Of a stretch of 64,000 bases of DNA, positions 9,435 to 10,537 are shown in pieces. How positions within the stretch are numbered: the first letter of the stretch is position 1; every line of letters begins with the position of its first letter. The notes under the pieces were generated by a model that ran no database searches, had not been told where the DNA came from, and saw nothing but the letters and a program-made list of their open reading frames with translations. Made by a program: the position numbers and the translations under genes. Location of the stretch: contig CP054187.1 of NCBI GenBank assembly GCA_015200345.1, forward strand, positions 3,642,470 to 3,706,469, read 5' to 3'. The DNA is from Planctomycetia bacterium. GTDB lineage: Bacteria > Planctomycetota > Phycisphaerae > UBA1845 > UTPLA1.

Positions 9435-9707
9435 CTATTGCGCGACGCCGTTGGGCGACAAAACGCTGTACACCAGGGCGGCCAGCGCCGCGACGTTGAG
9501 CAGAAACGCTGCCCACGTGCTGACGGGGTGCGAAGCGCGGTTGGGGCCGCTCAATGAGGCGGGGACGGAGAAGACGATTCCTGAAAGAAAGGCGATCGAA
9601 CCGATCGTCGCGCGGGGATCGCCTCAACAGTAGAACAATCGCAGGCTGGCCCCTCCGCAGGCAACCGCTGCAAGCACCAGTGCGATCGGACCGGAAAGCG
9701 TTTTCAT
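9435..9707 (-). CDS. small three-helix membrane protein with in-frame TGA (selenoprotein candidate or nonsense-interrupted gene)
   Basis: Reading from ATG 9707, 27 codons end in LRLFYC, then comes TGA (9624-9626), then 62 further codons in the same frame to TAG. The whole frame reads as a membrane protein: helix 1 GPIALVLAAVACGGASL, helix 2 TIGSIAFLSGIVFSVPASL, helix 3 WAAFLLNVAALAALVYSVL. Third codon positions are G or C in 50 of 62 codons after the TGA and 16 of 26 before it, so the downstream part looks coding. AGGAAAGG lies seven bases before the ATG, and a good promoter lies upstream. If TGA is read as selenocysteine, the product has a Cys-Sec pair. A recent nonsense mutation (for example from TGG) or a sequence error is the alternative. 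I do not recognise the family. Confidence 0.5.
9591..9623 (-). promoter_or_regulatory. SECIS-like hairpin just downstream of the in-frame TGA
   Basis: In the mRNA, CGATC-GGTTC-GATCG can form a five-pair stem with a five-base loop starting with GGU, and the loop begins 22 bases after the TGA. Known bacterial SECIS hairpins have their loop in a similar window and usually have G in the first loop positions. A second pairing, GGCGATC right after the TGA with GATCGCC, is mutually exclusive with part of the first. This is an inference from pairing by eye only. Confidence 0.3.
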
Positions 9708-9752
9708 GGCGTACCTTTCCTGTCAAGGTAGGCGGCGAATGCCGCACGGAAG

Positions 9753-9781
9753 ATCATAGGTCGCGTTGAACGCAATGCCAA
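9753..9781 (-). promoter_or_regulatory. sigma-70-type promoter for the small membrane gene
   Basis: On the minus strand TTGGCA is followed after exactly 17 bases by TATGAT, each one base away from consensus. Transcription would start near 9746, giving a leader of about 40 bases that contains a small hairpin (GCGGC-ATTC-GCCGC) before the ribosome site. It shows the interrupted gene has its own promoter and need not depend on the upstream permease. Confidence 0.5.
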
Positions 9782-9796: not shown

Positions 9797-10537
9797 TCAC
9801 GTCAGCATTAGTTTCGCGCCGGCGATGATGAGCACGACCGCCAGAAATCGCCGTAGTGTCGGTATGGGAAGTCGACGACTGCCCCAATAAGAGCCAAGGA
9901 CTCCGCCAAGCAGCGCGGCCGGGAGCCAGAAAATGATTTCTCCTGGAACGCGCCAGACCTTGCTGCCCAAACCCAGTAGTCCCGCAGCCGAGTTCATGAA
10001 AATAAACACCGCTGCCACGCCCGAGGCGGTTTGAATTGAAGCCCATCCGGCAAGGATCAACAAGGGGCTAAGGAAAATGCCTCCGCCAACACCGGTCAGG
10101 CCCGACAGCAATCCGATGAGGGCGCCGACGGGCAGAGCGACCAGCACAGGAGGTGGGCGCGGGTCGTGTCGAGGTGCGCCGCCGGGTATTGCCAGCATCC
10201 TCATTGCGGTGAAGAACAATACGGCGCCGACAATGAGGCGATAGGCTGCCGGGGGCGCCGTGATCGCGCCGCCAAGGTACGCACACGGAATCGACGCGAT
10301 TGCAAGGGGCCAGAAGTGCCGCCAGGAGAAATGACCCGCGCGGGCGAAGTTGTACGACGCGATGATGGCGACCAGAAGGTTCATCGTCAGGGCCGTCGGC
10401 TTCATCACCGCCGGCTCCATGGAAGCCAGCGCCATCACGGCGAGATAGGCCGATGCACCGGCGTGGCCAACCGACGAATAGAGCAGGGCGGCGACGAAGA
10501 AAGCGGAAGGCAACAGGATGGCGGTGGTCGTATTCAA
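9797..10537 (-). CDS. TauE/SafE family membrane permease
   Basis: A 246-residue integral membrane protein with seven or eight hydrophobic helices and the family's duplicated glycine-rich motifs: ALLYSSVGHAGASAYLAVMAL near residue 25 and IGLLSGLTGVGGGIFLSPLLIL near residue 145. The family exports or imports sulfite, sulfoacetate and other small organic or sulfur anions; the substrate here cannot be told. Length is normal. The gene is divergent from the E2 gene and lies about 90 bp upstream of the small TGA-interrupted membrane gene on the same strand. Confidence 0.85.
   Translation of the reverse strand: MNTTTAILLPSAFFVAALLYSSVGHAGASAYLAVMALASMEPAVMKPTALTMNLLVAIIASYNFARAGHFSWRHFWPLAIASIPCAYLGGAITAPPAAYRLIVGAVLFFTAMRMLAIPGGAPRHDPRPPPVLVALPVGALIGLLSGLTGVGGGIFLSPLLILAGWASIQTASGVAAVFIFMNSAAGLLGLGSKVWRVPGEIIFWLPAALLGGVLGSYWGSRRLPIPTLRRFLAVVLIIAGAKLMLT

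Follow-up and report, generated by a model that had tools for sequence, protein, structure and literature searches.

An apparently new, nearly selenocysteine-only family of predicted small membrane selenoproteins in Planctomycetota

The gene and the limits of a single sequence

In the window, by which we mean the whole 64,000-nucleotide stretch of DNA that was analysed, a gene of 90 codons and a TAG stop lies on the minus strand at positions 9435..9707, with its ATG at 9707-9705 and its stop at 9437-9435. We annotate it as a selenoprotein gene on the basis of homologue comparison and a family alignment. The product, read from 9707 to 9435, is MKTLSGPIALVLAAVACGGASLRLFYC-U-GDPRATIGSIAFLSGIVFSVPASLSGPNRASHPVSTWAAFLLNVAALAALVYSVLSPNGVAQ, where U is the predicted selenocysteine (Sec) at codon 28, encoded by an in-frame UGA (9624..9626, minus strand). 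A sequence-only reading of this DNA had reported a single in-frame TGA after Tyr-Cys in a 90-codon frame without giving a strand, and that frame is present, on the minus strand. The promoter and ribosome binding site that it had placed before the ATG were also located as claimed, namely a -35-like hexamer TTGGCA (9776..9781), a -10-like hexamer TATGAT (9753..9758) after a spacer of 17 bases, and the ribosome binding site AGGAAAGG (9714..9721), all on the minus strand. It should be noted that the two hexamers are consensus matches only, with no data on function, and that the ribosome binding site was read from the sequence; purine-rich sites also precede the ATG at many related loci.

Directly upstream and on the same strand, the window encodes a TauE/SafE-family exporter (9797-10537), which adjoins the gene otherwise only in the sister genome. 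The neighbours in the window, which besides this exporter are an MptE-like protein and a 2-oxoacid dehydrogenase E2, are seen again in the sister genome at most. No neighbour was found to recur across clades, and the inference of function from gene neighbours was therefore dropped.

The frame beyond the TGA had been called coding because it is open and rich in G or C at the third codon position. Both features are present, and a recount again gave G or C at the third position in 50 of the 62 codons that follow the TGA, but they are weak as evidence alone. Of the 22 long window ORFs with TGA as their stop, 9 likewise continue without another stop for 75 codons or more. Such open frames are common in this GC-rich genome, and we dropped frame openness and third-position composition as weak evidence. 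TGA closes 22 of the 36 long ORFs, more than any other stop, so there is no reassignment of the code. The hairpin region of the window, when folded alone, showed no extra stability over shuffled sequences (z = -0.66), and at its energy minimum the 48-nt stretch takes a different, competing and stronger shape (-16 kcal/mol); folding of the window stretch alone was thus rejected as evidence for a SECIS element. With open frames common and the hairpin no better than its shuffles, the case rested on comparison. Against the sister genome (82% identity), dN/dS was 0.04 before the TGA, 0.50 after it and 0.25 overall, and the value after the TGA, taken against one close relative, indicates that constraint on the C-terminal part is moderate. 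Despite this, the motif directly after the TGA is conserved family-wide.

Homologues, hairpin and selenocysteine machinery

In a protein search of the taxonomic family (17 genomes), 9 genomes yielded relatives whose frame is interrupted by a single TGA, at this same codon. A profile of nine sequences matched 55 of the 114 genomes of the order, the strong matches nearly all having one TGA, and a larger profile was also used; TGA homologues were found in about 45 genomes of the order; in another Planctomycetota order, about 28 of 154 genomes have a TGA homologue. When 84,980 species genomes were scanned with a DNA pattern, 56 stretches matched, and the majority encode this same protein. Going by their record titles, these came mainly from Planctomycetota, most often Phycisphaerae, and also from MAGs labelled Pirellulaceae and Limisphaerales. 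Pattern matches in Streptomyces, Microtetraspora and similar genomes were set aside as chance. A strict filter gave 65 distinct sequences, reduced to 64 once a chance match (L068) was dropped; weak matches in the order and class (L157-L161, L163, L164, L168-L171, L173, L174) lack the motif and were not counted.

Comparison of the homologues for Cys, Trp or TGA at this position, the check proposed by the sequence-only reading, returned TGA in at least 64 distinct sequences, Cys in one paralogue and Trp in none. The Sec position is invariant in the family alignment (A6), and Sec is the most strictly kept residue. The family motif is nearly always C-U-G-[HD]: the residue before Sec is Cys in 63 of 64 members and Gly in one (L172), and the residue after it is Gly in 62 of 64, followed by His (40) or Asp (21, L068 excluded). 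A divergent copy outside the strict filter (L162) reads ACAS-U-GGSLLTLG. The Cys-Sec redox motif that had been suggested needs correction in one respect: its Cys is nearly, not absolutely, conserved (Gly in L172, divergent in L162), which leaves a strict Cys-Sec redox pair unproven.

The family also varies in length and copy number. A short subtype of about 53 aa ends after helix 2 and so has helices 1-2 only. Another divergent Sec copy (L165) has Ala-Ala after Sec, and one locus (L053) carries two tandem Sec copies, TYC-U-VPPLDTLG and FFC-U-GHMLYVLG, one motif being diverged. Two longer members were seen, one in a Pirellulaceae MAG with a large C-terminal extension (L061:3462-4619) and one with an N-terminal zinc-ribbon-like CPEC..CQHC segment (L112:7132-7632); neither has a Pfam match.

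Downstream of the UGA lies a bSECIS-like hairpin (9591..9609, minus strand), supported by covariation in 50 sequences, in which a stem of seven positions (alignment columns 18-24 pairing with 30-36) carries a 5-base loop. The apical loop is GGUUC (9598..9602, minus strand), with 21 nt between the UGA and the loop. In the window copy, 6 of 7 stem positions pair, with five continuous pairs under the loop. Of 64 members, 62 have GGUNN as the loop, the exceptions being GGGCC and GGCCC at the same distance. Counted from the UGA, its first base is the 22nd in all members but one (L040), which is out of register and for which we infer by eye a stem a few bases earlier with a GGUC loop. Across the 50 sequences, 91.1% of pair cells hold standard pairs, falling to 29-52% when the 3' side is slid by 1-3 bases, and 57 cells show a double change vs 21.9 +/- 6.2 in shuffles. 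None of 500 shuffles reached the observed percentage paired, double-change cells, number of pair types or covariation score. The GGUUC hairpin that had been described 22 bases after the TGA, at SECIS distance, is thus present and is a covarying structure conserved across homologues. Because the RNA stem overlaps codons, the amino acids at two facing positions are coupled (Met-Met in 13 and Ala-Ala in 7 of 50 members). The published bSECIS model sets a minimum free energy of at most -7.5 kcal/mol and a UGA-loop distance of 16-37 nt (PMC13188914). The minimal stem of the window copy, at -5.0 kcal/mol (local fold -6.4), falls short of the energy limit, which 32 of 50 members reach, and the window hairpin is among the weaker ones. 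An Rfam search found nothing.

One genome (G046, locus L055) holds two tandem copies of the gene and serves as a natural control. The downstream copy has TGA in the context NYC-U-GHPLAAVG with all seven stem positions paired, whereas the upstream copy (L055:1498-1878) has TGC, reads TYCCGHPLAAIG, and shows two of the seven stem pairs broken and a GGATC loop; pairs were counted by eye on the sequence. Under Sec decoding, a copy that has exchanged Sec for Cys would be expected to show a decayed hairpin as well, as is seen here. This upstream copy is the only Cys form found, and its His-rich tail YHDHKHGHGEAGGGRTDDQVHDHDHDHEQEQ suggests metal binding. Palindromic-looking repeats, caccggtttNcaaccggtg, lie to either side of the two copies (L055:1380-1480, 2140-2250). 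No relatives were retrieved from viruses by a scan with a Cys-coding pattern, nor from plasmids and phages with a consensus-like, non-natural query.

The genome itself (3.88 Mb, one contig) contains the machinery that had been named as a check, selA, selB, selC and selD all being found. The selA match scored 517 bits, and selB lies directly upstream of it (303.6 bits over model positions 2-361, above the cut-off), with its C-terminal part in the same 750-aa frame. The tRNA-Sec scored 73.7 bits and has the anticodon tca (UCA) per ARAGORN. The selD gene (374 bits) has one in-frame TGA in the context ANCAG-U-AGKLPRG; it is itself likely a selenoprotein gene (L154, C1:3620511-3621431), and appears to be a second, independent gene of this genome in which UGA is read as Sec. 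A scan of the same genome for other genes with the same hairpin gave no further convincing case. In the order, selA was above the cut-off in 93 of 114 genomes. Every genome with a motif-confirmed copy of the gene has selA, and the 15 genomes without any selA match have no motif-confirmed copy and a single weak match without the motif (G035). As selA is common across the order, this co-occurrence is consistent with Sec decoding but weak as evidence.

Readings of the in-frame UGA

Computation shows a conserved UGA, a covarying hairpin, a complete Sec machinery and coding constraint past the UGA. We consider it very probable that the gene encodes a small selenoprotein in which the UGA at codon 28 is read as Sec; there is no protein or mass-spectrometric evidence, and use of the hairpin by SelB in vivo is inferred. 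Ribosomes would translate 27 codons and then meet the UGA, where SelB with Sec-tRNA(UCA) would bind the GGUUC-loop hairpin just downstream in the same coding RNA. Selenocysteine would be inserted in place of termination, and a further 62 codons would be translated before the TAG. The predicted product is a 90-residue membrane protein in which a tight interfacial turn, Cys-Sec-Gly-[His/Asp], joins helix 1 to helix 2, with a helix 3 in most members.

The sequence-only reading had left room for a recent nonsense mutation or a sequence error. A pseudogene of a small membrane protein, of which only the first 27 codons are made, would fit the ordinary use of TGA as a stop in the window and the higher dN/dS after the TGA than before it. 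The same TGA is nevertheless found in the sister genome and in more than 60 diverged homologues, none of which has Trp, Arg or any single-step sense codon other than Cys there, and the conserved TGA together with the covarying hairpin refutes this account, to which we give an exceedingly small chance. An error of a single base in sequencing or assembly might be suspected, as the genomes concerned are mostly metagenome assemblies, yet the same TGA in independent assemblies from different projects refutes it, and its chance is practically nil. Independent assemblies and conservation across two groups of Planctomycetota thus exclude both.

Read-through of UGA with near-cognate tRNAs is known, and the UGA could in principle be recoded with a residue other than Sec (e.g., Trp), which would make the remainder of the frame a regulated C-terminal extension. 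Computation cannot see which residue is inserted. What makes this account very unlikely is the complete Sec machinery including tRNA-Sec, the covarying GGUNN loop at SECIS distance, the in-frame TGA in the selD of the same genome, and the fact that the sole paralogue without UGA has Cys, the usual substitute for Sec.

The membrane product and its place among selenoproteins

The three membrane helices first proposed from the sequence agree with our analysis, three hydrophobic segments coinciding with the three helices of an AlphaFold2 model (5-25, 31-52 and 61-83; mean pLDDT 68). A fold search with this low-confidence model gave a best Foldseek E of 2.1 and a VIA Z of at most 8.2, which is in the range of common helical bundles; the matches were generic bundles only, and the search is uninformative. 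Scanning 29 members against NCBIfam release 20 yielded only isolated weak single-member matches to unrelated models, and Pfam and PDB sequences gave no convincing match. Members have on average 2.0 basic residues in the second loop vs 1.0 in the Sec loop, and the N terminus is without acidic residues; under the positive-inside rule, this gives a weak hint of an outward-facing Sec loop.

As to function, we infer, tentatively and at somewhat short of even confidence, that the selenol, which usually has a Cys thiol beside it, has a redox role at the membrane face, for example in the reduction of peroxides or in thiol-disulfide exchange. We rank this role first and the handling of soft metals or metalloids second, the ranking also being an inference. 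MerT is a small protein with about three membrane helices and a vicinal thiol pair, and the present family is like it (PF02411) in having about three helices and a vicinal pair, here of a thiol and a selenol. A membrane protein that handles soft metals or metalloids in the manner of MerT or MerF, and is not a redox enzyme, would accord with the vicinal Cys-Sec and the ensuing Gly-[His/Asp] where helix 1 ends, and with the His-rich tail of the Cys paralogue. We regard it as possible but unlikely, since searches with the Pfam MerT model PF02411 and metal-transport families gave no match, no metal-resistance neighbours are conserved, and a few members have the Cys before Sec replaced. A Sec form of the MerT-type mercuric transport protein is listed with the motif C/SxxU (PMC13188914), whereas the motif here is C-U-G-[H/D] at the end of helix 1.

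The bSECIS-decoded selenoprotein is a known kind, and it is the family that appears to be new: apparently a nearly Sec-only selenoprotein family of Planctomycetota with 2-3 membrane helices. Like other bSECIS-decoded selenoproteins (fdhA, selD and others; PMC13188914), it has an in-frame UGA with a hairpin downstream inside the coding region, a loop that starts with G-G-U, a UGA-loop distance within 16-37 nt, and selA, selB, selC and selD in the genome. Its sequence and motif are absent from all families described in the 2026 catalogue of 119 prokaryotic selenoprotein families and subfamilies (PMC13188914), which has no entry of this description; only open-licence literature was searched. The adjacent Cys-Sec is shared with the CU-motif selenoproteins listed there, SaoC, SaoL, KCU-star/DUF466, MbdU and HgcA (PMC13188914), but there is no match to their NCBIfam models, and length and architecture differ.

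According to the 2025 deep-Sep paper (PMC12013277), every selenoprotein known so far now seems to have homologues that contain Cys, whereas here a single Cys paralogue stands against at least 64 Sec members. To be retained by the deep-Sep pipeline, a candidate needs either a known Sec homologue or two or more Cys homologues within its ten best hits; per its authors, the pipeline may miss families without Cys homologues (PMC12013277). A family that is almost Sec-only thus lies in its blind spot. With UGA in at least 64 genes and Cys in one tandem paralogue, selenocysteine appears hard to replace, and we lean slightly towards a nearly Sec-obligate family whose membrane-surface selenol cannot be replaced by Cys; the search for Cys forms outside Planctomycetota covered only viral contigs, plasmids and phages.

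The family was found here in about 75 Planctomycetota genomes, in which gene callers will either overlook the gene or shorten its product to about 27 residues. With one hairpin, one UGA and 53-90 residues, it offers a compact model of how RNA structure constrains protein sequence, and it raises the question of what advantage a selenol at the membrane surface has over a thiol.
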